Shown: positions 1,121 to 16,936 of the stretch, in pieces
How positions within the stretch are numbered: position 1 is the stretch's first letter
Layout: every line of letters starts with the position of its first letter
From: Minisyncoccota bacterium
GTDB lineage: Bacteria > Patescibacteriota > Microgenomatia > UBA1400 > PJMF01
DNA: 57,536 nucleotides
Assembly: GCA_003173865.1 (NCBI GenBank)
Contig: PJMF01000013.1
Location: forward strand, 1 to 57,536
Reading direction: 5' to 3'
Notes under the pieces: generated by a model
Databases searched by the model: none
Seen by the model: the letters and a program-made list of their open reading frames with translations, nothing else
Told to the model about the DNA's origin: nothing
Position numbers and translations under genes: made by a program

Positions 1121-2272
1121 TTAATAATTTTTTCCGGCGTTCGTGATCACTAAATCATGTGGATGACTTTCAGTGAGCGATGCTTGCGTGATTTGCACAA
1201 ACTGCGCTTCTTTCGCAAGTTGTTCAACCGTTTTGACACCTAAGTAGTACATTCCTGATTTGATGCCGCCGATTGCTTGCTCAACGATCTCTTTAACGGT
1301 ACCTTTGACCGGCACTAAACCTTCGACGCCTTCAGCAACGAGCACTTTGTCTTTGTAATAACTTTTGCCATGGAACTCATCTTCTGACTTGATTTTTGCA
1401 CCGTGTTCCATTGCACCGATCGAGCCCATTCCACGATAACTCTTAAACATGTATGTCGACTGTTTCTTTTTTAACAAATGTTTGAATTGATTTGGAATTT
1501 GCTCAGGTGTCAGCTCCACTTTTTCTCCTGGTGCCTCAACTGCAGAAGCAAAAAAGCTGCCCATCATCACCGTGCCCGCACCTGCGGCCAGCGCCTTGAC
1601 CATATCGCCGGAGTACTTAATGCCACCATCGGCAATAATTGGCACGCCAGCTTCGCGGCCAGCTCGAACAGTCTCTATAATTGCGGTTAACTGTGGGACA
1701 CCCATTCCAGATACAATGCGCGTCGTACAAATCGCACTCGGTCCCATACCCACCCGAATACTATCCGCACCTGATTCGATCAACGCTTTTGCGCCATCAT
1801 ATGTTGCCACATTGCCAGCAATCACTTGCAGATCTTTGTATGTTCTCTTGAGAAATTTGGTTGTTTCAATAATGCTCGTGGCATAGCCGTGCGCGGAATC
1901 TACTAAAATCACAGAGACACCAGCAGCTACTAAAGCCTCCGCGCGTTCTTCAAAACCTTTACTCGCGCCAATTGCAGCACCGACCAAAAGATTCTTAGCA
2001 AGAACTTTTTTTACTTCAACAACTTGTGCGTCAACTGTTAAGTTGCGATGAATGAAACCAATGCCACCAAGCTCAGCCAAAGCAATTGCCAGCTCACTCT
2101 CGGTCACTGTATCCATCGGTGAAGAAACCAACGGTGTTTGTAAACGTATGCTCCGAGTTAACTGTGAACTGATCTCAATATCTTGTCGGGAAAAATCGCT
2201 ATAACCAGGCAGAAGCAACACATCATCAAATGTCAATGTAACGGGAAAGTTTGGTGTTTGCATACGCGTCAT
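1121..2272 (-). CDS. guaB: IMP dehydrogenase lacking CBS domains
   Basis: Oxidises IMP to XMP with NAD+, the step before guaA. The protein is 383 aa rather than the usual about 490 because the two CBS domains normally inserted after the IHRNLT region are absent and the barrel continues directly. The catalytic loop is [11 protein letters not shown] (nucleophilic Cys present) and the mobile flap region [10 protein letters not shown] is intact. An AGGAG ribosome binding site lies 5 nt before the ATG at 2270-2272, overlapping the end of the upstream gene, only 2 nt away. The lack of CBS domains implies loss of adenine- or guanine-nucleotide allosteric control; this is inference from the family. 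Confidence 0.95.
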
Positions 2273-2274
2273 GT

Positions 2275-3300
2275 TTACTCCTGTTTAATAAAACTTGCTT
2301 CAGAGGCAACTTGATTGGCTCGAAGCAAGTCTTCTTTTGTTAATATGTTGTGTTCGAGCAACTTTTGGAACTCAGCGCGAAGAGAGATACACTGCATCTC
2401 TGGACCATCAGTATTGATCGTAAACAAAACATTATTTTTCTTGAGCGTCGCGTAGACATGGCGCATCTCATCAAAATCTTTAAGCACTTTGGTGTTGAGG
2501 TTTGACGTCGGACAGGTTTCCAACACAATTTTATTGTTCACTAAGTGATCCATGAGTTTTTGGTCTTGAATACACGCGATGCCATGACCAATACGATCTG
2601 GACTCAGCTCTTCCACCACTTGCCACATTTCTTCGATACCAGTGGCTTCACCAGTGTGAATCGTGACACCCAGGCCAAATCCGCGGGCTTCTTCAACCAA
2701 TGATTTAATGTCGCGGGGTGCAAAACGTGCGCTTTGATCGTTTAAACTGATTGGTCCAGCTAAATCAATCCCAACAACGCCACGGTGCCGGTACTTGATA
2801 GCTTTCTTGACAATGCCAGCGTTTTCTTGCTGCGAAAAACGTCGATCCATCATCAAGATAATGCCTGCCTTAACCGGATACTTGAGCATCGCACGCTCCA
2901 TTCCTTGCAAAGCGAACACAATGAGATGATCAAGGTCACGCTCACCTTTGCGGTTGCGCAAAATCGGATTAAAACGCATTTCCAACTTGGTAATATTATT
3001 TTTGCGATACGCACCAGAAACAATATTCTGCATCCCGGTAAACAGCGCCTCTGGTGAAGACTGAATTTTTTCCGTCCAGTCATACATGCTCAAGTATTCT
3101 TCATATCCCTTGGCTTCGTGAATCGTAATCATTTTTTCGAACTCCCAGTAGCTTTTGGTGGGAAGACGAATGCCTTGATCGTGAGCAATTTCCCACAACA
3201 TCGTCGGCGAAATCGAGAAACCAACGTGAGTATGAAGCTCAGTCAACTCGACGCCCTCGAGAAAGTGTAAGTTTGGAGAAAAATCGGTCGTATTGATCAT
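2275..3300 (-). CDS. add: adenosine deaminase family protein
   Basis: 341-aa member of the zinc-dependent adenosine/adenine deaminase family, expected to hydrolyse an aminopurine to the 6-oxo form and so feed IMP/GMP formation by the next genes. Family motifs are present: ELHTHVG (metal His pair), HTGEA, RIGHG, CPTSN and NTDGPEM. The last motif normally reads TDDP; the first Asp (zinc ligand) is kept, but the second, which contacts the purine ring in mouse ADA, is Gly. The exact substrate is therefore uncertain (adenosine, deoxyadenosine or a modified purine). First gene of the operon, with a -10 box 6 nt before its ATG. Confidence 0.85.
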   Translation of the reverse strand: MINTTDFSPNLHFLEGVELTELHTHVGFSISPTMLWEIAHDQGIRLPTKSYWEFEKMITIHEAKGYEEYLSMYDWTEKIQSSPEALFTGMQNIVSGAYRKNNITKLEMRFNPILRNRKGERDLDHLIVFALQGMERAMLKYPVKAGIILMMDRRFSQQENAGIVKKAIKYRHRGVVGIDLAGPISLNDQSARFAPRDIKSLVEEARGFGLGVTIHTGEATGIEEMWQVVEELSPDRIGHGIACIQDQKLMDHLVNNKIVLETCPTSNLNTKVLKDFDEMRHVYATLKKNNVLFTINTDGPEMQCISLRAEFQKLLEHNILTKEDLLRANQVASEASFIKQE

Positions 3301-6027: not shown

Positions 6028-6861
6028 TTACTTTCTAAACTTATTGATTTCCTCACTGAGCTGTCGCGCTGCATTCCCCGCCTCTTCCACAAAATTTTCC
6101 CCTGAAGAAGCAAAAATAATGCCGCGAGAAGAGTTGATTAAAAGATTGTGCTGCCCGCCAGCTGGACCAGTCAATCCTGCGTTGAGGGTTTTCTCCAAAT
6201 CTCCGCCTTGAGCACCAATTCCAGGAACTAAGAAAATCATTTCATCACCAACAACTTGGCGAATCTCGCGCATTTCTTCTGGATACATGGCGCCCACGAC
6301 AAGCATGCAGTTGTGGTGTGCGTTCCATTTTTGCGCCACATGTGTGGCAACAACTGCCCACAACGGCTGGCCTTCAAACTCCAAGTCTTGAAACTCACCA
6401 GCTCCTGGGTTGGATGTATGGCAAAGGATAATCGAGACTTTATCTTCGCGCTCCAAAAAAGGTTGCAGCGCTTCGCTTCCCAAGTAAGGATGTAAAGTCA
6501 CTGCATCAAAACCATACCAATCAAAAATACTCGTCACGTATCCTTGATTTGTCGAACCAATATCCGCGCGCTTCGCATCGCAGATCGTAAAAATATCTGG
6601 ATAATTCGCTTGCAGATACTCCATCGTCATCTTGAGGTCGTGTATGCCCTCTTCGCCGCGTGTTTCGTAAAATGCCATGTTGGGTTTGTACGCCACGGCG
6701 TATTGATGCGTGGCATCGATAATTGCTTTATTAAACGCGAACTGGAGGTATTTTTCTGATTTAAGATGCGCAGGGATTTTTTCAAAATCAGAGTCAAGAC
6801 CAACACAAAGCAATGAGTTTGCTGACTGGATACGGGTGAGAAGTTTTTGAGTGGCGTTCAT
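6028..6861 (-). CDS. pyrF: orotidine 5'-phosphate decarboxylase
   Basis: Decarboxylates OMP to UMP, the final step of de novo pyrimidine synthesis. The 277-aa length and the layout match the longer (type 2) bacterial PyrF group. Visible motifs: VGLDSD near the N-terminus, the catalytic DAKRADIG loop, and VPGIGAQGG plus SSRGI for phosphate binding. Last biosynthetic gene of the pyr operon, 24 nt after the preceding small gene. Confidence 0.95.
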   Translation of the reverse strand: MNATQKLLTRIQSANSLLCVGLDSDFEKIPAHLKSEKYLQFAFNKAIIDATHQYAVAYKPNMAFYETRGEEGIHDLKMTMEYLQANYPDIFTICDAKRADIGSTNQGYVTSIFDWYGFDAVTLHPYLGSEALQPFLEREDKVSIILCHTSNPGAGEFQDLEFEGQPLWAVVATHVAQKWNAHHNCMLVVGAMYPEEMREIRQVVGDEMIFLVPGIGAQGGDLEKTLNAGLTGPAGGQHNLLINSSRGIIFASSGENFVEEAGNAARQLSEEINKFRK

Positions 6862-6885: not shown

Positions 6886-7290
6886 TTAACAAAGAGAAAA
6901 CATCCCACCTGCAGTCATAATTGCACTTAAAGCCTCTTCCCTTTCAATCAAATCTTTCTCCATGCTAGAGTGCCATTTTTTTTGTTTTTTTGCTTCTTGT
7001 AACTCAATTTCTTTTATTGCTTCTGCAAGGATACCTTCAGGAAATTCTTCTAGATGGTGCGTAACTACACTACCTCGCAATTCATTTAAGAGAGATAAAT
7101 CAATTTTTTTTAATTGCTCAATTAATTGCGCTTGTTTTGTCGGTCTAACACTTTCATCAATGAAACCTGTAGTTAAAATATCGTCATTTTTTTCTCTCAT
7201 AGCTTGATCCATTTCAATCAAATCTAAAATTATGCTTTTGGCAGATTGAATTTCTAAGTCTCTACGGCTTTCTTCGTGTATTGACATCAC
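6886..7290 (-). CDS. unknown 134-aa protein inside the pyrimidine operon
   Basis: Highly charged, predicted mostly helical protein with no membrane segment; I do not recognise the family. Its start overlaps the pyrE stop by 4 nt (7287-7290), and pyrF follows, so it is co-expressed with UMP synthesis and translationally coupled to pyrE. Lys/Glu-rich helices in the last third (KEIELQEAKKQKK) suggest a protein or RNA interaction surface. A structural partner or regulator of the pathway is possible, but nothing in the sequence shows a catalytic site. Confidence 0.7.
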   Translation of the reverse strand: MMSIHEESRRDLEIQSAKSIILDLIEMDQAMREKNDDILTTGFIDESVRPTKQAQLIEQLKKIDLSLLNELRGSVVTHHLEEFPEGILAEAIKEIELQEAKKQKKWHSSMEKDLIEREEALSAIMTAGGMFSLC

Positions 7291-7952
7291 AACCTCACAG
7301 ACGGTTCAAATCCATGTCGAGCAGCCCAACCCCAAGGTTCTTGGAACCAATCTTGGAGCACTTTCATTTCTGCTTCGGTAAATTTATGGGCTTTAAGCGC
7401 TTCATCTAAAATCACCGAAAAAGAAGTCAAAACGTGCAGTTTCACATTTGCTTTTGCAAAAGCCTCGTTTGCTTCGGCAAATCCACAGCTCGTAATTGAT
7501 AAACAATCTGTGACTACTGCTCCCTCTGCTCTCAAGGCTTCAACGCCAGATAAACTGCTACCCCCAGTCGTAATATGGTCTTCGACGAGGAGCACTTTCA
7601 ATCCATCCACTACACCACCCTCGACTCGTTTTTTTGTGCCATGATCTTTCACTTGCTTGCGCACAAATGCAGAAGGTTTTTTTAGAAAAAAACCCAGTGC
7701 CGCGCTGTGCGGAATCCCGGCAGTTTCAATCCCAGCGACCACATCAAAATCTAAATGCTCATTCGCGATAATATGTTGAAAACCTTCAATTACTTTTGCC
7801 CACTCCTCCGGATAAAAAGGGAAACAACGATTATCAACATAGACGGGCGCTTTTAACCCAAATTTATACGTAATTGGTTGCGCAGGTTGAAAACGCACTG
7901 CATTAATCTTCAAAAGCGATTGCGCAATGAGTTGCTCGTCAGAGAGTTGCAT
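7287..7952 (-). CDS. pyrE: orotate phosphoribosyltransferase
   Basis: Transfers the phosphoribosyl group of PRPP to orotate giving OMP. The PRPP-binding motif is VLLVEDHITTGGSS, and GIETAGIPHSAALG forms the pyrophosphate-loop region. KQVKDHGTKKRVEGG corresponds to the flexible catalytic loop with Lys residues. Length 221 aa is normal. It lies 12 nt downstream of pyrC and overlaps the next small gene by 4 nt. Confidence 0.93.
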   Translation of the reverse strand: MQLSDEQLIAQSLLKINAVRFQPAQPITYKFGLKAPVYVDNRCFPFYPEEWAKVIEGFQHIIANEHLDFDVVAGIETAGIPHSAALGFFLKKPSAFVRKQVKDHGTKKRVEGGVVDGLKVLLVEDHITTGGSSLSGVEALRAEGAVVTDCLSITSCGFAEANEAFAKANVKLHVLTSFSVILDEALKAHKFTEAEMKVLQDWFQEPWGWAARHGFEPSVRL

Positions 7953-7964
7953 GGGGTCCTTTAA

Positions 7965-9317
7965 TTATTTTTTTAACCACATTCCTTTTTGTTCATTCAA
8001 GATTTTTCCATCTTCATATTTTAATTCACCTCTTAGAAAAGTCGCTACCGGTCTCCCACGCAACTTCATTCCTTCATACGCTGACCAACCAAGTTTCGTA
8101 AAGAGATCTTCCTTCTTCACTTGCCACTCTCCTTTTGTATCAAGAATCACGAAATCGGCATCGTTTCCTACTTTGATGCCAGTTTTTTGTGGAAAATCAA
8201 AGAATGTAGCAATATTGGTAGATCCGCAGTTGGCTAATCTTTGCAGCCCTTCCTCTAAACTTTCTTCGCCAAAATTGCCAATCCATCCAGTTAAAAATGC
8301 TGCAATCGTTTCCTGTACACCTGGCGTTCCACTGACTGCTTTCCAGACATCTTGATTTTTTTCTTCGATTGTATGTGGTGTGTGTTCTGAACAAATACCA
8401 TCAATCATTCCTGCACGCATCATTTGCCATAACTCATGATTGAGCTTTGGAGAACGCAGCGCTGGACTGACTTTTAATAAGGTTCCCAATTTTTTGTAAT
8501 CATCACTATTGAAAAAAAGTTGATAGCCTGTGACTTCGCCACCGGCTTGAAGTCCTTGCGTGCGTGCATACGCAATCGCATCGAACTCACCGCGAGTGCT
8601 TGCGTGCAAAATCCATAACTTTGTCCCGTAATACTTGGCTAAAACCACTGACTCCCACGCCGACATCTCGACCACTAACTCATTTCGTGCTTCTGAATAC
8701 GCAAGCATGTCTGTACGCCCTGCATCCTGAAATTCTTTTTCGCGCGCAGTCACTAAATCCTGATTTTCAGCATGCACTAAAACTGGAAATCCACGACGTG
8801 CTGCAATCTCCCAAATTTTAGCTTGATCCGAGAGCTTTGGCACTGTGGTGGGAGTTGTTTGATGACCGGCAGTAAACACTTTTACTCCCGTAATTTCAGC
8901 TGGATCAACTTTTTCGAGTTCCGAAATATCATTGACTGAAGAACCAAAATTAATAGCAAAATCGCACAGCGATTTGTGTTTATACCGGTCAATTTGTTCG
9001 TGAAGCAACTTCACGGTGGTTGTGGGAGGAATCACGTTAGGCATATCAAACACCGTGGTAAAACCACCAGCTAACGCAGCTCGCGTACCATGTGGAATGT
9101 CTTCTTTATGCTCCAAACCAGGCTCACGGAAATGACCATGCATCTCGATCAAACCAGGTAAAACATATTTGCCATTGGCATCGTAGGCATTTGGCACATT
9201 TTTGGTGCCTTCTTTAATCTCAGTGATTTTCTGATCAGTAAAAAAAATTGTTCCGGCTACAATTCCATTTGGAGTAACGATCTTCGCATTCGTAATTGCT
9301 TGAAAGTTTTTTACCAT
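7965..9317 (-). CDS. pyrC: dihydroorotase
   Basis: Cyclises carbamoyl-aspartate to dihydroorotate. 450 aa from the ATG at 9315-9317, which directly follows the frdB-like stop; a longer frame reading into frdB is rejected as it lacks conserved residues. Amidohydrolase motifs: MHGHFREPG (metal His pair and substrate Arg), MPNVIPPT, the GVKVF Lys expected to be carboxylated, VHAEN and LHAST His ligands. The final metal/catalytic motif reads SEHTPH instead of the common (S/T)DHAPH, an Asp-to-Glu change. The class I type fits the length. The step product is the substrate of the missing PyrD reaction. Confidence 0.9.
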   Translation of the reverse strand: MVKNFQAITNAKIVTPNGIVAGTIFFTDQKITEIKEGTKNVPNAYDANGKYVLPGLIEMHGHFREPGLEHKEDIPHGTRAALAGGFTTVFDMPNVIPPTTTVKLLHEQIDRYKHKSLCDFAINFGSSVNDISELEKVDPAEITGVKVFTAGHQTTPTTVPKLSDQAKIWEIAARRGFPVLVHAENQDLVTAREKEFQDAGRTDMLAYSEARNELVVEMSAWESVVLAKYYGTKLWILHASTRGEFDAIAYARTQGLQAGGEVTGYQLFFNSDDYKKLGTLLKVSPALRSPKLNHELWQMMRAGMIDGICSEHTPHTIEEKNQDVWKAVSGTPGVQETIAAFLTGWIGNFGEESLEEGLQRLANCGSTNIATFFDFPQKTGIKVGNDADFVILDTKGEWQVKKEDLFTKLGWSAYEGMKLRGRPVATFLRGELKYEDGKILNEQKGMWLKK

Positions 9318-9318
9318 G

Positions 9319-9981
9319 TTACTTATTTTGTAGTAACTCAACTGCTTTATCAATCGGCACTCCCCGAGGACAAACTTTTGTAATGCGTTTTGCTTCTTTG
9401 GCAGAATAAACGTCGACGCCTTCGACTTGCGCAATCGTTTTGCGATCCAATCCATCTCGTGGATCAGTAAAAAAACGCGCGAGTTTCACTAAGGTCATGG
9501 GATCAATAATGCCATATTTCTGTTTTTTCATTGTCTCCGAAGCAGCGACACAACATCCACACTCGATACATTTACGAAAGGGCTTGGACAAATCAGCTTG
9601 TGCTTTGGTCACGATCACATCTTTTTTCTTTTGCAGATATGGTCGCGTACGTTTGAGTCTTTCGAGTAAAAGACTCAGATCAACAATCAAATCACGTTCA
9701 ATCGGAAAGTTCGCTAGAGGTTCCACAACATATTTTTTTACATCTTTATCAACCTTTTCAAAACATCCCAGCACCGGTTTCCCATTGACCATAACCCCAC
9801 ACGTACCGCAAATTCCACTTCGGCACTCCCAGCGAAAAGCCACCGTCTGGTCACATTTTTTTTGAATAAAGTTCAGCGCATCAAGAATAGTCATTCCATC
9901 ACTATATGGAACTTGAAACGTGTCATAAGATACCGAACCTATTTCGGCACTGTAGCGACAAATTTGGAACTGAAGTTTCAT
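9319..9981 (-). CDS. frdB: fumarate reductase/succinate dehydrogenase-like iron-sulphur subunit, [3Fe-4S] ligands lost
   Basis: 220-aa soluble two-domain electron-transfer subunit. The N-terminal ferredoxin fold carries four [2Fe-2S] cysteines (C53, C58, C61, C73 in CRSGICGTCG and LGC). The C-terminal domain has CIECGCC and CPRG, giving the [4Fe-4S] ligands C138, C141, C144 and C204. Positions that bind the [3Fe-4S] cluster in E. coli SdhB (C159, C206, C212) are Ser148, Ala194 and Ile200 here. That cluster hands electrons to quinone at the membrane anchor, and no anchor genes are present. It lies 3 nt after the frdA-like gene and 1 nt before pyrC, inside the pyr operon, which lacks pyrD. A role in dihydroorotate oxidation is inferred. 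Confidence 0.9.
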   Translation of the reverse strand: MKLQFQICRYSAEIGSVSYDTFQVPYSDGMTILDALNFIQKKCDQTVAFRWECRSGICGTCGVMVNGKPVLGCFEKVDKDVKKYVVEPLANFPIERDLIVDLSLLLERLKRTRPYLQKKKDVIVTKAQADLSKPFRKCIECGCCVAASETMKKQKYGIIDPMTLVKLARFFTDPRDGLDRKTIAQVEGVDVYSAKEAKRITKVCPRGVPIDKAVELLQNK

Positions 9982-9984
9982 AAA

Positions 9985-11643
9985 TTACCTTATTACTTCT
10001 GATGTGTGTGTTTTTAACTGACCATTTTTATATGTCACGACAACATTTTTACACCACTCTTCTTTTCGTTCAGGAAAATCACTTCGATAGTGAGCTCCTC
10101 GACTCTCAGTTCTGAGTAAAGCTGCTTCAATCGTCGCTAAAGCAGTCAAAATCATGTTGTGCAACTCCAACGTATCTTGCAGTTCTTTATTTCGCTCACG
10201 AGAAGGAACTTTTACACGCAAATTCTTTGCTAACTCAGCTAACTTCCTTACTTCTGTCTGTGCCTCCTTCAATCCCTTTTCGCTGCGCACAATTCCAACT
10301 TTATTCCACATCACTGACTTCAATTGATGCTCTAACTCATATGTATCATTGCCTTTTTTACGCTTCGCGAGGCCATCTATTCTTGCTATTTCTTCTTGAA
10401 TTAACTTTCCTGGAATGTCGAGATGAGTTACCCGTTTTTTGACTTGCTTTTTTGCAGCGGTAATCGAGCGCTTGCCAAAGACTTGTCCCTCAGCAATGGA
10501 GTTACCACCCAAGCGATTTGCACCATGTACACCACCTACTACTTCGCCAACCGCAAGAAGCCCTGGCACATTCGTTTCTGCATCCACGGTAATCCGCAAA
10601 CCACCACACATGTGGTGCATTGATGGATAAATCTCCATTGGCGTTTTGTGAATGTCTACGCCAGTAACCATGTACTGCTCTAGCACATCCGGAATTTTCT
10701 CCTCGATCTCACCTTTGGGCCAGTGTGTAACGTCGAGGTAAACACCTCCGTGCTCTGAGCCTCTTCCCTCTTCTACTTCTTGATAAATTGCACGAGTCAC
10801 TTCATCACGACCTGCCAATTCCAATAATTTTGGTTGATACCGCTCCATAAATCGCTCACCTTTGCTGTTTTTGAGCTGACCACCGTGACCACGCACTTTT
10901 TCCGTCACCAGTACACCACGCGCGGAAGAAGGAAACACCATGCCAGTCGGATGAAACTGCGTCATCTCCATATCAATCAACTCAGCACCTAACTCCAACG
11001 CCATAGCATATCCGTCACCTGAGTTACTCGCTGCATTCGTTGTTACTTCATACATGCGTCCGGCACCTCCACTCGCTAGAATCACTACTTTTGCACGGAA
11101 GAAAACATACTCACCCGTAGCCAAATCAAAGCCAAATGCTCCTGCAACTCCATCTGTGGTTTTTAAAATCTTGGTGATGAAAAACTCGTCGTTATAAGGC
11201 ACCGACAACTTGCGCAACTCATCAACCAAACCTTGCATCATTTCTCGACCGGTATAGTCACCAACACAGACATTGAGAGGTTCACTCTGTTTCCCACCGC
11301 GCCAAGTGTAAAGCTCTCCATTTGGCAGACGATCAAAAATCAAACCGTACGACTCTAGGTCCATAATGCGTGCTGGCATTCCTTCAGTAAACGCTTTGAC
11401 CATTGGATAGTTATTGATATGCCAGCCGCCATCTATTGTGTCCTTAAAGTGACCTGCAGTTGTTGCCGGGAGCTTTATTGCTGCGTTTAACCCCCCCATT
11501 GCCATTCCAGTATGTGCACAACCAAGTACTTCTTTACAAATCAATTGAACATCTAAACCCTCTTTTGCAGCTTCGATAGCAGCTCTGAGGCCTGCTCCTC
11601 CTGCACCAATAATGGCTACGTCACAAGAAATTGTTTTATACAT
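9985..11643 (-). CDS. frdA: fumarate reductase/succinate dehydrogenase-like flavoprotein in pyrimidine operon
   Basis: 552-aa FAD-dependent subunit. GAGGAGLRAA is the Rossmann dinucleotide site, and AHTGMAMGG holds the His (about 44) that binds FAD covalently in E. coli FrdA. Active-site landmarks of the family are retained: QFHPTG (H231), AGRDEVTRA (R279), HHMCGG (H343/H344) and GANRLGGNS (R377). The C-terminal helical domain ends with RTESRGAHYRSDFP. By family it interconverts succinate and fumarate. Its start overlaps pyrB by 8 nt and its iron-sulphur partner follows, so it is fixed within the pyr operon where pyrD is expected. It could oxidise dihydroorotate or regenerate fumarate-linked acceptor; unproven. 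The FAD His argues against L-aspartate oxidase. Confidence 0.92.
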   Translation of the reverse strand: MYKTISCDVAIIGAGGAGLRAAIEAAKEGLDVQLICKEVLGCAHTGMAMGGLNAAIKLPATTAGHFKDTIDGGWHINNYPMVKAFTEGMPARIMDLESYGLIFDRLPNGELYTWRGGKQSEPLNVCVGDYTGREMMQGLVDELRKLSVPYNDEFFITKILKTTDGVAGAFGFDLATGEYVFFRAKVVILASGGAGRMYEVTTNAASNSGDGYAMALELGAELIDMEMTQFHPTGMVFPSSARGVLVTEKVRGHGGQLKNSKGERFMERYQPKLLELAGRDEVTRAIYQEVEEGRGSEHGGVYLDVTHWPKGEIEEKIPDVLEQYMVTGVDIHKTPMEIYPSMHHMCGGLRITVDAETNVPGLLAVGEVVGGVHGANRLGGNSIAEGQVFGKRSITAAKKQVKKRVTHLDIPGKLIQEEIARIDGLAKRKKGNDTYELEHQLKSVMWNKVGIVRSEKGLKEAQTEVRKLAELAKNLRVKVPSRERNKELQDTLELHNMILTALATIEAALLRTESRGAHYRSDFPERKEEWCKNVVVTYKNGQLKTHTSEVIR

Positions 11644-12583
11644 AGTCTTTTAGTAAAACCAAACTTAATAATGCCATACGAACATACATACCATTCGTCA
11701 TTTGTTCTGTAATGTAAATTGCACGCGGATCTAAGTCAACCTCTGGCGTAATTTCACCAACCCGTGGTAATGGATGCATCACCACTGCAGTTTTTTTTGC
11801 TTGGCGCAGTAATTGCGGTGTAATAATGTAGTGATATTTTAGTTTTTCATAAAGATCCAGATCAGTAAAACGTTCCTTTTGGACACGTGTGACATACAGG
11901 ACGTCTGTACGTGGGAGTACCTCTTCTAGAGTTTCACTTTGAGTTACTTTCACACCGCGATCAGAAAACGTTTTTATCAGATTACTTGGTAAACGAAGAA
12001 TTTCCGGTGAAACAAAGTTGAATGTGACATTTTTATACTGCGAAAGTAACTTGGAGAGTGAGTGAATCGTGCGACCATTCAACAGATCACCAACCATTGT
12101 AATCGTCAAACCATCCACCCCACCAAAATGTTCACTAATCGTAAAAAAATCAAGTAACGCTTGAGAGGGATGTTCTCCTACACCATCACCAGCATTGATA
12201 ATTGGTTTTTCACAAAACTCTGCTGCAATTTTAGCTGAACCTACTTCTGGATGACGCAAGACAACGACATCCGAATAGCAACCAAATGTACGTACCGTAT
12301 CAGGTAACGTTTCACCTTTAGCCACAGACGAGTAGCTCACACCTTGCAAAGGGATAAAACCACCTCCCAATCTCTGCATTGCACTAATAAATGACGCAAA
12401 CGTACGGCTAGAAGGTTCGTAAAAGAGCGCTGTCATTAACTTTCCTTTTAGTAAATCGCTCCCCCCTTTTGTTTCTACCAGTTTTTTCATTTTCTTCGTC
12501 ACTGTAAGCATTAGCTGCAAATCCGTTTTGTGAAATTGGTCAGCAGTTAAGACATCTTGTAAATAAAACGTATTGGAAGACAT
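11636..12583 (-). CDS. pyrB: aspartate carbamoyltransferase catalytic chain
   Basis: Condenses carbamoyl phosphate and aspartate, committing carbon to pyrimidines. The carbamoyl-phosphate site FYEPSSRT is intact, with GDGVGEHPSQALLD, GDLLNGRTIHSL and HPLPRVGEI following in the usual order. The ATG at 12581-12583 is preferred because GGAAGG precedes it by about 8 nt; an in-frame ATG 18 nt upstream is possible. No regulatory pyrI is adjacent, so allosteric control of the E. coli type is not indicated. It overlaps the frdA-like gene by 8 nt. Confidence 0.95.
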   Translation of the reverse strand: MSSNTFYLQDVLTADQFHKTDLQLMLTVTKKMKKLVETKGGSDLLKGKLMTALFYEPSSRTFASFISAMQRLGGGFIPLQGVSYSSVAKGETLPDTVRTFGCYSDVVVLRHPEVGSAKIAAEFCEKPIINAGDGVGEHPSQALLDFFTISEHFGGVDGLTITMVGDLLNGRTIHSLSKLLSQYKNVTFNFVSPEILRLPSNLIKTFSDRGVKVTQSETLEEVLPRTDVLYVTRVQKERFTDLDLYEKLKYHYIITPQLLRQAKKTAVVMHPLPRVGEITPEVDLDPRAIYITEQMTNGMYVRMALLSLVLLKDYV

Positions 12584-12606
12584 ATATTTTCCTTCCGGCA
12601 TAAGTA

Positions 12607-15600
12607 TTAATGTAATTGACTCATGTACTCACTCCACGACTTCACTTCCAGATCTTCTAACTCATATTTTGCTAGTGCATCAACAAAGTGCGCGGCGTTA
12701 TCAACAGTTGTAAAAATCGGTATCCCGAAATCAATTGCCATTCGCCTCATTGTATACCCATCAGTATTATCCAAGTACAGCTGTTCAACTTCATTATTCT
12801 TATAACGACCAGGAATCACAATTGCAAAGTCAATTGAACGCAGCGCAAGTAAATCCGTCACATTTGGATGTTTCTGAGTCTCTTGAATTTTTCCGACTGC
12901 TGTAGCAGCAATTCCATTTTCCTTGAGGAAAAGCACCGTCCCTGACGTCCCAAAAATTGTGAATCCCATCTGTATTAAGTGTCCACAACTACTCAAAAAA
13001 CGAAGCTTCGACTTACTTCCACCTAAACTCACAAGAACTGCTTTTTTCTGTGGTGGTTTTACATTTGTTGCATACAATCCTTTGAGATACGCGTCGTGCA
13101 TATCTTTACCGAATGCAGCCACTTCACCGGTTGAACTCATCTCAACACGCAGAACTGGATCTGTCCCACGCAACTTATGAAACGAAAACTGCGGAACTTT
13201 AACTGCTTGAAAAGGTAACTTCGTCAGCGTAACTGGCTTCACTTTTTTCCCAAGCATCACTTCAGTCGCCATTTGAATAAAGTTGACGTGGAGCGTTTTA
13301 CTTACAAACGGTAAACTACGTGATGCTCTCAAGTTGCACTCAATCACGTAAGCCACATCATTTAACACAAGAAATTGAATGTTAAATGGTCCATTGACAT
13401 CCAGCGCTCCGACTATCTTTGCAGCGACATCACGCAAATGATCTTGCATACTGCGTGACAAACCTACTGCTGGGAGAGTGAGTGTCGAGTCACCTGAGTG
13501 CACCCCTCCACCTTCCAGATGTTCGCTGATGGCATACGCAATAATCTTGCCATCTTGACTGACTCCATCAAAGTCACACTCAGTCGCATCGCTTAAAAAG
13601 CGACTCATCACTAAAGGATGCTCTTTAAAATCGATATCTTTACGTGACATGTAACGATCAAGATTTTTCTCTGACTCTAAAACGCTCATCGCTCGACCAG
13701 AAAGAACAAAAGAGGGCCGTACTAAAATTGGATAATCAAGTTTTACTGCAAGCTCTTTAGCTTGTTTCAGCGTACGCGCCTCACCCCAAGTTGGTTGCGG
13801 AATTTTTAAATTATCGAGCAACTTACTAAATGTTTTGCGATCTTCAGCTCGATAAATATTTTCTGCCTTCGTGCCAAGTAGTGGAACACGATGAGTAGCA
13901 AGTTTGGGTGCTAAGTTATTAGGAATCTGGCCACCAACAGAAACAACACAAGGCGACTGCTCAATATCCCAAATATCAAGAATACGTTCCAAACTCAGCA
14001 CCTCAAAGTACAAGTAATCTGAGTTATCATAGTCAGTTGAAACTGTTTCGGGATTACAGTTGATCATCACCGTACTCAAACCATTTTTCTTGAGTGTTTG
14101 AATAGTATTGACTGCACACCAATCAAACTCAACTGAAGTTCCAATCGAGTAAGGACCTCCCCCGATTACCATCGCTTTCTTTTCTTTTGCATTTGGTACA
14201 TGATCACTTTCAGTACCGTGATACGTGAGGTAAAGATAATTTGTTTTGGCAGGAAACTCTCCAGCCATCGTATCGATACGTTTGACTACTGGAAGAATTC
14301 TTAATTTTTTGCGTAGCGTGCGAACGTCATCTTCTTTTTTCTTGAGAATCCCTCCAATTTGTCTATCTGAAAATCCAAGTTGTTTCGCTGAGAGAAGAAG
14401 ATCAGGATTTTTTTCAAAACTTACAAAACTCGATTTACTCAGTTTTTGATACATAGCCACAATGTGTTTAAGCTTTGCCAAAAACCACATATCAATACCA
14501 GTGATCTGATGAATCTGCTCGAGTGTCACTCCTTCGCGCATCGCCGAACAAATGGTAAAAAGACGCATTGAGTTTGGTTTTTTTACTTTTTCAGTGAGTT
14601 GTTTACGAGTTTCTTGGCTAAACGCTTTATCCAAAACGCCTTCATAACCATCATTCAACATGCGAGCACCTTTTTGAATTGCTTCCTCAAATGTACGACC
14701 AATTGCCATCACTTCACCAACACTCTTCATTTCACTCCCAATTTCATTAATAGCATGGGAGTACTTGTCGAGATCCCAACGGGGAATTTTGACGACAACG
14801 TAGTCCAGCGCTGGTTCAAAAAATGCCGATGTTTTTTGTGTAATTAAATTTTGCAAATCAGGTAAATTTTTTCCTAGTGCTAACTTTGCGGCAATATAAG
14901 CTAACGGATAACCAGTTGCTTTGGAAGCAAGTGCCGATGATCGAGAAAGTCGTGCATTGACTTCGATAATACGATAGTCGCTATTTTTGGGATTGACAGC
15001 GTACTGGATGTTACATTCGCCAACAATCTTTAACTCGCGAATGGCATCAATCGCTACCTGACGAAGCAAAAAATACTCGTGATTATTGAGTGTCTGAGAC
15101 GGTGCAATCACGATTGATTCGCCAGTATGAATTCCAACCGGATCAAAGTTTTCCATATTACAGACAGTAATACAGTTATCTGCCTGATCGCGTACTACTT
15201 CATACTCGATTTCTTTCCAACCTTCCAGTGATTCTTCTAAAATAACTTGAGGTGCCGTGGCAAATGCGTTCGTTAGTAACTTCTGCAATGTTTCTCTATC
15301 TCGTGCGACACCAGAACCAGTGCCGCCAAGTGCAAAACCAGTTCGGAGCATGACCGGAAATCCAAGTTCTTCAGCAAATTGCATACCTTCCTCAGCGGAA
15401 GTGATAATTTTTCCTTTTGCAGTTTTGAGGCCGATCTTAGCGAGACGTTTGCTAAATAGTTCCCGATCTTCTGTATCAATCACCGCTTGAATGGGTGTTC
15501 CTAAAATGCGGACATTATATTTTTCTAATACACCACTCTTTGCTAACTCCATACCACAATTGAGCGCTGTTTGGCCACCAAAAGAAAGTAAAATACCCGA

Positions 15601-15858
15601 AGGCTTTTCTTTTTTAATGACTTTTTCGACAAAAAATGGAGTAACTGGTAAAAAATAAATCTCATCTGCCAGGCCTTCAGACGTTTGAATCGTTGCGACG
15701 TTTGGATTAATGAGAATAACTTGCTTCCCTTCTTCTTTGAGCGCCTTAATAGCCTGTGTTCCAGAGTAATCAAACTCACCAGCCTCACCAATTTTCAGGG
15801 CTCCGGAGCCGAGCAAAAGAATTTTTTCTTGAGTTGATAATACCTTTTTAGACTTCAT
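12607..15858 (-). CDS. carB: carbamoyl-phosphate synthase large subunit
   Basis: Full-length 1083-aa synthetase that makes carbamoyl phosphate from bicarbonate, ammonia and two ATP. It has the tandem arrangement of two ATP-grasp halves (first starting LGSGALKIGEAGEFDYSG, second near GGGPYSIGTSVEFD), a middle oligomerisation domain and a C-terminal MGS-like allosteric domain (VSLGGSKSKLRF then IFGTSGT). Four nt separate it from carA. It is the largest gene of the pyr operon, with no sign of truncation. Confidence 0.97.
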   Translation of the reverse strand: MKSKKVLSTQEKILLLGSGALKIGEAGEFDYSGTQAIKALKEEGKQVILINPNVATIQTSEGLADEIYFLPVTPFFVEKVIKKEKPSGILLSFGGQTALNCGMELAKSGVLEKYNVRILGTPIQAVIDTEDRELFSKRLAKIGLKTAKGKIITSAEEGMQFAEELGFPVMLRTGFALGGTGSGVARDRETLQKLLTNAFATAPQVILEESLEGWKEIEYEVVRDQADNCITVCNMENFDPVGIHTGESIVIAPSQTLNNHEYFLLRQVAIDAIRELKIVGECNIQYAVNPKNSDYRIIEVNARLSRSSALASKATGYPLAYIAAKLALGKNLPDLQNLITQKTSAFFEPALDYVVVKIPRWDLDKYSHAINEIGSEMKSVGEVMAIGRTFEEAIQKGARMLNDGYEGVLDKAFSQETRKQLTEKVKKPNSMRLFTICSAMREGVTLEQIHQITGIDMWFLAKLKHIVAMYQKLSKSSFVSFEKNPDLLLSAKQLGFSDRQIGGILKKKEDDVRTLRKKLRILPVVKRIDTMAGEFPAKTNYLYLTYHGTESDHVPNAKEKKAMVIGGGPYSIGTSVEFDWCAVNTIQTLKKNGLSTVMINCNPETVSTDYDNSDYLYFEVLSLERILDIWDIEQSPCVVSVGGQIPNNLAPKLATHRVPLLGTKAENIYRAEDRKTFSKLLDNLKIPQPTWGEARTLKQAKELAVKLDYPILVRPSFVLSGRAMSVLESEKNLDRYMSRKDIDFKEHPLVMSRFLSDATECDFDGVSQDGKIIAYAISEHLEGGGVHSGDSTLTLPAVGLSRSMQDHLRDVAAKIVGALDVNGPFNIQFLVLNDVAYVIECNLRASRSLPFVSKTLHVNFIQMATEVMLGKKVKPVTLTKLPFQAVKVPQFSFHKLRGTDPVLRVEMSSTGEVAAFGKDMHDAYLKGLYATNVKPPQKKAVLVSLGGSKSKLRFLSSCGHLIQMGFTIFGTSGTVLFLKENGIAATAVGKIQETQKHPNVTDLLALRSIDFAIVIPGRYKNNEVEQLYLDNTDGYTMRRMAIDFGIPIFTTVDNAAHFVDALAKYELEDLEVKSWSEYMSQLH

Positions 15859-15862
15859 ATGT

Positions 15863-16936
15863 TTATTTCATCAGTTTCTTAAAAATCCAGTTTGTATCAA
15901 ACGGTCCCGGTTGACCTTCTGGATGAAACTGCACACTTGCAATATTCTTTGTTTTACTCCGTAAGCCTTCGCTTGTTTGATCATTTAAGTTAATAAACCA
16001 CTCCTCAAATCCAGACGGAATGGTGGCACGATCCACTGCGTAGCCATGATTTTGAGAAGTTAAGTATGCTTTTTTCGTAAGCACATCTTGACACGGTTGA
16101 TTCAGACCTCGATGTCCATACGGCAATTTATATGTATTCGCTCCAATTGCTAAGGCCAAGAGCTGATGACCCAAACAAATCCCTAAGAAAGGTAACTTCG
16201 CATTCAACACTTCACGAATATGTTGAATTGTTATCTCACAATCCTTTGGATCACCCGGCCCATTCGAGACAAGCACCCCATCAATTTTTTCTTTCAGATC
16301 TAAGGGATTCATGTCCCAAGGAATGCGAATAATCTTATAGCCGTTGTTCAGCATCTCACGGATGATGCCATGCTTTACTCCACAATCGATAAGCGCAATT
16401 GTTTTTCCACTGGACAATGATTTCTCAGGAGAATATTGCACAACTTGATTTAAACTTGCTTCAGACACAACTTTAGTTAGATCGAGTGGTTTCCATTTCG
16501 GTGCAATTTTTCTCATGCTGATTTTGCCCTGCAATACGCCTTTTTCACGAATTTTATGAGTGAGCGCACGCGTATCAACGCCAGAAATTGCTGGAACTTT
16601 AAATTTTTTGAGCCATGCTGAAAAAGTTTGCTGAGATTGGTAATGAGAAGGCTCCGCTGCTTCATTACAAACGATCACACCACGTGTCCAAATCCTTTCC
16701 GACTCAAAGTTAACAACCAGATGTGAGTCTTGCATGACCACTTTAGGAACGCCGTAATTACCAATTAATGGATAAGTAAAAACTAAAATTTGGCCAGCAA
16801 AAGAAGGATCTGTTAAACTTTCTGTATATCCCGTCATTCCTGTTGAAAAAACCACTTCGCCATCAGCCTCACCTTCGTAACCAAAAGATTCTCCTTCAAT
16901 CACGTCACCATCTGCTAGATATAAATAGGCCTTCAT
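15863..16936 (-). CDS. carA: carbamoyl-phosphate synthase small (glutaminase) subunit
   Basis: 357 aa. Supplies ammonia to CarB by glutamine hydrolysis. The N-terminal CarA domain starts with AYLYLADGDVIEGESFG. The class I amidotransferase domain has VSNGPGDP, LGICLGHQ (nucleophile Cys) and VQFHPEGQPG (His, Glu). First gene of the pyr operon; AAGGAG lies about 11 nt before the ATG. A terminator hairpin 26 nt upstream of the start indicates attenuation control. Confidence 0.96.
   Translation of the reverse strand: MKAYLYLADGDVIEGESFGYEGEADGEVVFSTGMTGYTESLTDPSFAGQILVFTYPLIGNYGVPKVVMQDSHLVVNFESERIWTRGVIVCNEAAEPSHYQSQQTFSAWLKKFKVPAISGVDTRALTHKIREKGVLQGKISMRKIAPKWKPLDLTKVVSEASLNQVVQYSPEKSLSSGKTIALIDCGVKHGIIREMLNNGYKIIRIPWDMNPLDLKEKIDGVLVSNGPGDPKDCEITIQHIREVLNAKLPFLGICLGHQLLALAIGANTYKLPYGHRGLNQPCQDVLTKKAYLTSQNHGYAVDRATIPSGFEEWFINLNDQTSEGLRSKTKNIASVQFHPEGQPGPFDTNWIFKKLMK

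Follow-up and report, generated by a model that had tools for sequence, protein, structure and literature searches.

A complex II-type flavoprotein in the dihydroorotate dehydrogenase slot of Patescibacteria pyrimidine operons probably stands in for PyrD

We found that the pyrimidine operon of a Minisyncoccota bacterium encodes an FrdA-like flavoprotein and an FrdB-like iron-sulphur subunit devoid of [3Fe-4S] ligands at the place where dihydroorotate dehydrogenase would be expected. The occurrence of FrdA in this slot and its tendency to occur without PyrD form the chief signal and point to a new substrate. Such pyrimidine-operon FrdAs (pyr-FrdA) are probably non-homologous dihydroorotate dehydrogenases that replace PyrD and, alone or with a two-cluster FrdB, complete pyrimidine synthesis in PyrD-less Patescibacteria. 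The activity itself (dihydroorotate to orotate) is proposed on genomic grounds, i.e., operon slot, gene cassette and PyrD exclusion. Our literature search, within reach of few subscription papers and preprints, retrieved no report of FrdA as a dihydroorotate dehydrogenase or PyrD replacement in Patescibacteria.

The window, meaning the whole 57,536-nucleotide stretch of DNA that was analysed, comes from a genome of 1.2 Mb (95% complete) belonging to the same class as Candidatus Roizmanbacteria records (Patescibacteria). Its pyrimidine operon runs on the minus strand from 16936 down to 6028 in the order carA, carB, pyrB, frdA, frdB, pyrC, pyrE, a 134-aa ORF and pyrF, with overlaps or gaps of at most 24 bp and no pyrD within it:

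15863..16936, minus strand, carA, small chain of carbamoyl-phosphate synthase, assigned by its resemblance to carA across the compared loci
12607..15858, minus strand, carB, large chain of carbamoyl-phosphate synthase, assigned by its resemblance to carB across the compared loci
11636..12601, minus strand, pyrB, aspartate carbamoyltransferase, overlapping the frdA start by 8 bp
9985..11643, minus strand, frdA, FrdA-like flavoprotein of 552 aa, the proposed dihydroorotate-oxidising subunit
9319..9981, minus strand, frdB, FrdB-like iron-sulphur subunit of 220 aa, with [2Fe-2S] and [4Fe-4S] ligands present and the [3Fe-4S] cysteines gone
7965..9317, minus strand, pyrC, ~450-aa type of dihydroorotase, invariably found with pyr-FrdA, 1 bp after frdB
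7287..7952, minus strand, pyrE, orotate phosphoribosyltransferase, which uses orotate (TIGR00336 over cut-off)
6886..7290, minus strand, 134-aa ORF between pyrE and pyrF, matching no known family (zero matches in Pfam or NCBIfam)
6028..6861, minus strand, pyrF, orotidine-5'-phosphate decarboxylase (TIGR02127 over cut-off)

In the class, the usual operon has the organization pyrB-carA-carB-pyrC-pyrD(-pyrK)-(lyase)-pyrE-pyrF, with a pyrD that either resembles class 1B or is a divergent form of ~360 aa. The FrdA operons lack pyrD, and the pyrC-pyrD place is occupied by FrdA(B) together with a different dihydroorotase. The ~450-aa pyrC type was present in 12/12 FrdA loci, 46-72% identical to the window pyrC, and a ~340-aa type, about 30% identical to it, in all seven pyrD loci tested. 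An aspartase/fumarase-type lyase is also encoded in the operons of several relatives. We rejected this gene as a specific sign of FrdAB, as ordinary operons also have it after pyrD (L079, L082, L086); thus, it only suggests fumarate as acceptor for both kinds of enzyme. The divergent ~360-aa PyrD (L079:2897-3970, minus strand; similar ORFs in L080-L082, L086, L153 and L156) scores only ~55-75 bits to PF01180. Many Patescibacteria carry it in their pyr operon, frequently with the aspartase/fumarase-like lyase behind it; it is possibly a distinct fumarate-using class. At another locus (L089:10577-12370, minus strand; G340), a 597-aa ORF containing pyrB appears to fuse aspartate carbamoyltransferase with another domain.

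Relatives of the window FrdB are rare. Searching 84,980 species genomes returned just five, all from Roizmanbacteria/Patescibacteria and 51-56% identical. In four of the five, frdA-frdB-pyrC lies downstream of carB; the fifth (L009) begins at FrdB and runs into pyrimidine genes. FrdA is more widespread, with nine further carriers (52-62% identity) among 374 genomes of the class; two of the nine, G485 and G702, are identical with G321 and G336. All thirteen complex-II-type pyr-FrdAs lie in or beside pyrimidine genes, almost all directly upstream of the distinct dihydroorotase, and form a single clade with 100/100 support and a stem of 0.68. Within it, FrdA-only members (99/97) and members with FrdB (87/72) make up separate subclades. 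The FrdB gene is missing from the FrdA loci of G702, G589, G414, G479 and G722, and a family search found no FrdB-family protein in the whole genomes of these five; FrdA is therefore taken to be sufficient alone. No FrdB is visible in G446 either, but there the contig stops at FrdA. In plasmid records, relatives did not exceed about 39% identity.

As for FrdB itself, the initial annotation had proposed, by eye, that it keeps the [2Fe-2S] (C53, C58, C61, C73) and [4Fe-4S] (C138, C141, C144, C204) ligands, that Ser148, Ala194 and Ile200 replace those of the [3Fe-4S] cluster, and that anchor genes are absent. These statements stood, the last of them for the operons compared. A script reading of the product places cysteines at 53, 58, 61, 73, 138, 141, 143, 144 and 204, and in a phmmer alignment with E. 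coli FrdB (PDB 1kf6_B; E 1e-32) the second set pairs with the [4Fe-4S] cysteines and the three substituted residues with the [3Fe-4S] ones. The same three cysteines are missing, and the eight other ligands kept, in all eight pyr-operon FrdBs found (window, L007-L011, G571 and G461; about 51-80% identical mutually or to the window), which thus lack one of the three ligand sets of a complex II iron-sulphur subunit. Ordinary FrdB/SdhB proteins of the same phylum have all eleven ligands. No membrane-anchor gene (SdhC/D or SdhE/F) was found in the operon at any compared locus. An additional cysteine, C143 (motif CIECGCC), is invariant in the pyr-operon proteins. Only the [2Fe-2S] domain of the window FrdB is detected by Pfam, and NCBIfam assigns the protein to the dhsB subfamily at 174 bits (cut-off 88), below every more specific cut-off. 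Structure predictions by AlphaFold from five-sequence alignments were of low confidence (mean pLDDT 57.6 for FrdA and 53.2 for FrdB).

An assembly or sequencing artefact was ruled out by the recurrence of this FrdB in eight genomes. Judging from these sequences, the ligand loss is ancestral and no error, since it is common to all eight pyr-operon FrdBs, unlike the ordinary Patescibacteria FrdBs; within the FrdA clade it is secondary, because the clade holds five genomes with FrdA and without any FrdB. In one MAG (G325; L011:8001-8659) a frameshift splits FrdB, which represents either a pseudogene or a sequencing error.

The window FrdA has the features of a complex II flavoprotein, i.e., the FAD_binding_2 and Succ_DH_flav_C domains (PF00890, 8.9e-82; PF02910, 5.2e-30), the histidine of covalent FAD attachment and the His/Arg catalytic set. 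Aligned to E. coli FrdA, it keeps His44, H231, E248, R251, R279, H343 and R377, which correspond to His44, His232, Glu245, Arg248, Arg287, His355 and Arg390. PMC10238741 describes what His232, His355 and Arg390 do in the E. coli enzyme. In addition, six residues (M49, W114, K118, N124, H253 and H344) are invariant in 13/13 pyr-FrdAs and absent from every informative reference NadB, SdhA or FrdA, a set from which one misread ORF (Gemmatirosa) was removed and in which two references lack the N-terminus. Elsewhere in the family, position 49 is mostly E or Q, 253 is E, D or A, and 344 is Y or F. E. coli His44 serves FAD attachment, and Glu245, Arg248 and Arg287 act in the active site. The motif W-x-G-x-K-Q-x-x-P-L-N-x-C of pyr-FrdA sits at the position of the NadB loop that recognises the amino group.

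The distribution of PyrD, followed by its PF01180 domain, agrees with replacement. We compared 83 genomes that are at least 90% complete and encode an aspartate carbamoyltransferase scoring above the family cut-off; 6/9 with pyr-FrdA lack PF01180 vs 5/74 without pyr-FrdA (Fisher one-sided p = 8.6e-5), these being draft MAGs with kinship ignored and the weakest PyrD found scoring ~55 bits, so that a more divergent PyrD could escape the counts. The six comprise FrdAB genomes (G571 and G461, 96% complete) and FrdA-only genomes (G589, G414, G479 and G722). G571 has the order carB-pyrB-FrdA-FrdB-pyrC-pyrF-pyrE, G414 the clusters carA-carB-pyrB, pyrC-FrdA and pyrF-pyrE, and neither genome encodes any PF01180 protein. 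The five PyrD-less genomes without FrdA mostly have no real pyrimidine operons: G189, G510 and G605 carry a lone pyrB, G409 a pyrB with only pyrE near, and in G459 a divergent PyrD is cut by the contig end. Hence, in this sample of 83, practically every true pyr operon that lacks FrdA has PyrD. Neither FrdA nor FrdB of the window matches the PF01180 TIM-barrel domain, so both fall outside the known dihydroorotate dehydrogenase classes.

The exclusion is incomplete, because PyrD is still encoded by the window genome, G485 (VKOR-type only) and G446, the three of the nine that retain PF01180, and by G702, whose PyrD, like those of the window genome and G485, is of the VKOR-linked quinone class. 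G446 has two pyrimidine clusters (L142, L154), one with pyr-FrdA and the other a full operon with a class-1B PyrD.

Mechanistically, dihydroorotate may be viewed as a cyclic relative of aspartate and succinate that would bind at the succinate position of FrdA/SdhA, where the conserved Arg/His residues would hold its carboxylate and FAD would desaturate it by accepting a hydride. The hydride would pass to N5 of the probably covalent FAD and Arg279, as base, would take the proton, i.e., fumarate reduction in reverse. In FrdA-only members the reduced FAD would be reoxidised directly, most likely by fumarate at the same site, in a ping-pong cycle like that of class 1A, for which the operon lyase could supply fumarate; this is the most natural oxidant for them since the dicarboxylate-binding residues are retained. 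Class-1A PyrD uses fumarate as its oxidant. The class-I enzyme Ura1 is likewise described in PMC8520639 as using fumarate as acceptor. Fumarate is a plausible electron acceptor for pyr-FrdA.

In FrdAB members, electrons may instead travel singly through [2Fe-2S] and [4Fe-4S] to an acceptor that is presumably soluble, given that [3Fe-4S], the quinone-serving cluster of complex II, is gone; with a soluble partner this cluster would become useless and be lost. The FrdB without it is best read as an optional electron conduit to such a partner. A soluble route with another donor or acceptor had already been suggested in the initial annotation, and the clade-wide ligand loss, the anchor-less operons and the single FrdB of the window genome speak for it; yet the FrdA slot and the absence of PyrD point to a new substrate too.

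It counts against dihydroorotate as substrate that every known fumarate-binding residue is retained, as in a plain fumarate reductase. FrdAB could thus be an ordinary soluble fumarate reductase making succinate, merely disposing of electrons, e.g., those of dihydroorotate delivered via a separate PyrD. The intact catalytic and dicarboxylate-binding residues (H231, E248, R251, R279, H343 and R377), the PyrD encoded elsewhere in the window genome and the lyase of related operons, able to make fumarate, all fit this, as do the closest family models, those of the methanogen thiol:fumarate reductase TfrA/TfrB (NF004900, NF004898), likewise a soluble, anchor-less pair of flavoprotein and FrdB-type iron-sulphur subunit. 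TfrA is the top-scoring model for pyr-FrdA and TfrB a high-scoring one for FrdB. The window proteins nevertheless remain below both curated cut-offs (601 bits vs 718 and 148 bits vs 385), and, unlike TfrB with its 488-position model, the 220-aa FrdB has no CCG (HdrB-like) domain; the lost [3Fe-4S] cysteines and the pyrimidine operon set the pair further apart. Such a reductase would find no PyrD to serve in the six PyrD-less genomes of either kind, its FrdA-only forms would have no subunit through which donor electrons could enter, and the six clade-specific substitutions around the active site would go unexplained. The coexisting PyrD of the window genome, a possible divergent PyrD and the draft state of the genomes leave room for this alternative, which we nonetheless regard as unlikely.

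For the window genome specifically, orotate might be made by its VKOR-linked, class-2-like PyrD, with FrdAB as an auxiliary. This PyrD passes the quinone-dependent dihydroorotate dehydrogenase model (272 bits vs cut-off 267) and carries the active-site motif NISCPN. It adjoins a VKOR gene far from the pyr operon, on contig C32 (genome G000; L001:145-603, minus strand, and 1309-2403, plus strand). The two are neighbouring genes in L001; a PyrD-VKOR fusion was read directly only in L017 and L018 (Roizmanbacteria), and for other genomes the VKOR type is deduced from frame length. Many genomes that lack pyrB encode a long-frame PyrD, among them at least eight PF01180-positive genomes from the family of the window in which no pyrB exceeds the cut-off. 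Its presence in relatives without aspartate carbamoyltransferase shows that it has no fixed link to de novo pyrimidine synthesis and suggests a role outside this pathway, perhaps tied to disulphide formation; with the gene so distant from the operon, we find this source of orotate improbable.

Least probable is an L-aspartate oxidase/dehydrogenase (NadB-like) or another enzyme directed at aspartate or carbamoyl-aspartate and co-regulated with pyrimidine genes by chance, for although NadB is the best known of the soluble homologues in the superfamily and works without FrdB, and aspartate is a substrate of the pathway, the window FrdA scores 348.7 bits on NadB models against a cut-off of 452.75, the NadB-like proteins of the class are only 30-36% identical to it and form a separate 100/100 clade, the two NadB loci inspected (L151, L152) are flanked by apparent NAD-synthesis genes, the FAD-attaching histidine kept in pyr-FrdAs is missing in NadB, and the loss of PyrD would be left unexplained. 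NadB itself can take fumarate as acceptor.

Replacement of PyrD by pyr-FrdA thus remains the reading we favour. The two share the operon slot, are mutually exclusive in most genomes and would both use a flavin to oxidise a C-C bond adjacent to a carboxylate; they differ in having no sequence relation, FrdA being a Rossmann-type FAD protein and PyrD a TIM-barrel FMN protein. With complex II, pyr-FrdAB shares the FrdA fold, the covalent-FAD histidine, the His/Arg catalytic set and the [2Fe-2S] and [4Fe-4S] ligands, and departs from it in the anchor-less pyrimidine operon, the missing [3Fe-4S] ligands and the six clade-specific residues near the active site. A precedent for substrate change in the FrdA fold is urocanate reductase UrdA, which kept the Arg/His catalytic set (PMC7921117); unlike in UrdA, where the second carboxylate-binding His became Tyr, this residue is retained in pyr-FrdAs as H231.

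The recognised dihydroorotate dehydrogenases, to our knowledge, all share one fold. If the proposed function is true, a complex II-family replacement would mean that a universal metabolic step is also solved by an unrelated protein. It would close a gap in the pathway of Patescibacteria that seem to have no PyrD, a gap hidden so far by the annotation 'succinate dehydrogenase/fumarate reductase'. It would also show a respiratory enzyme shedding its quinone branch on its turn to biosynthesis. The orotate step in the building of DNA and RNA letters has probably passed to a fumarate reductase relative in this group of very small, uncultured bacteria.
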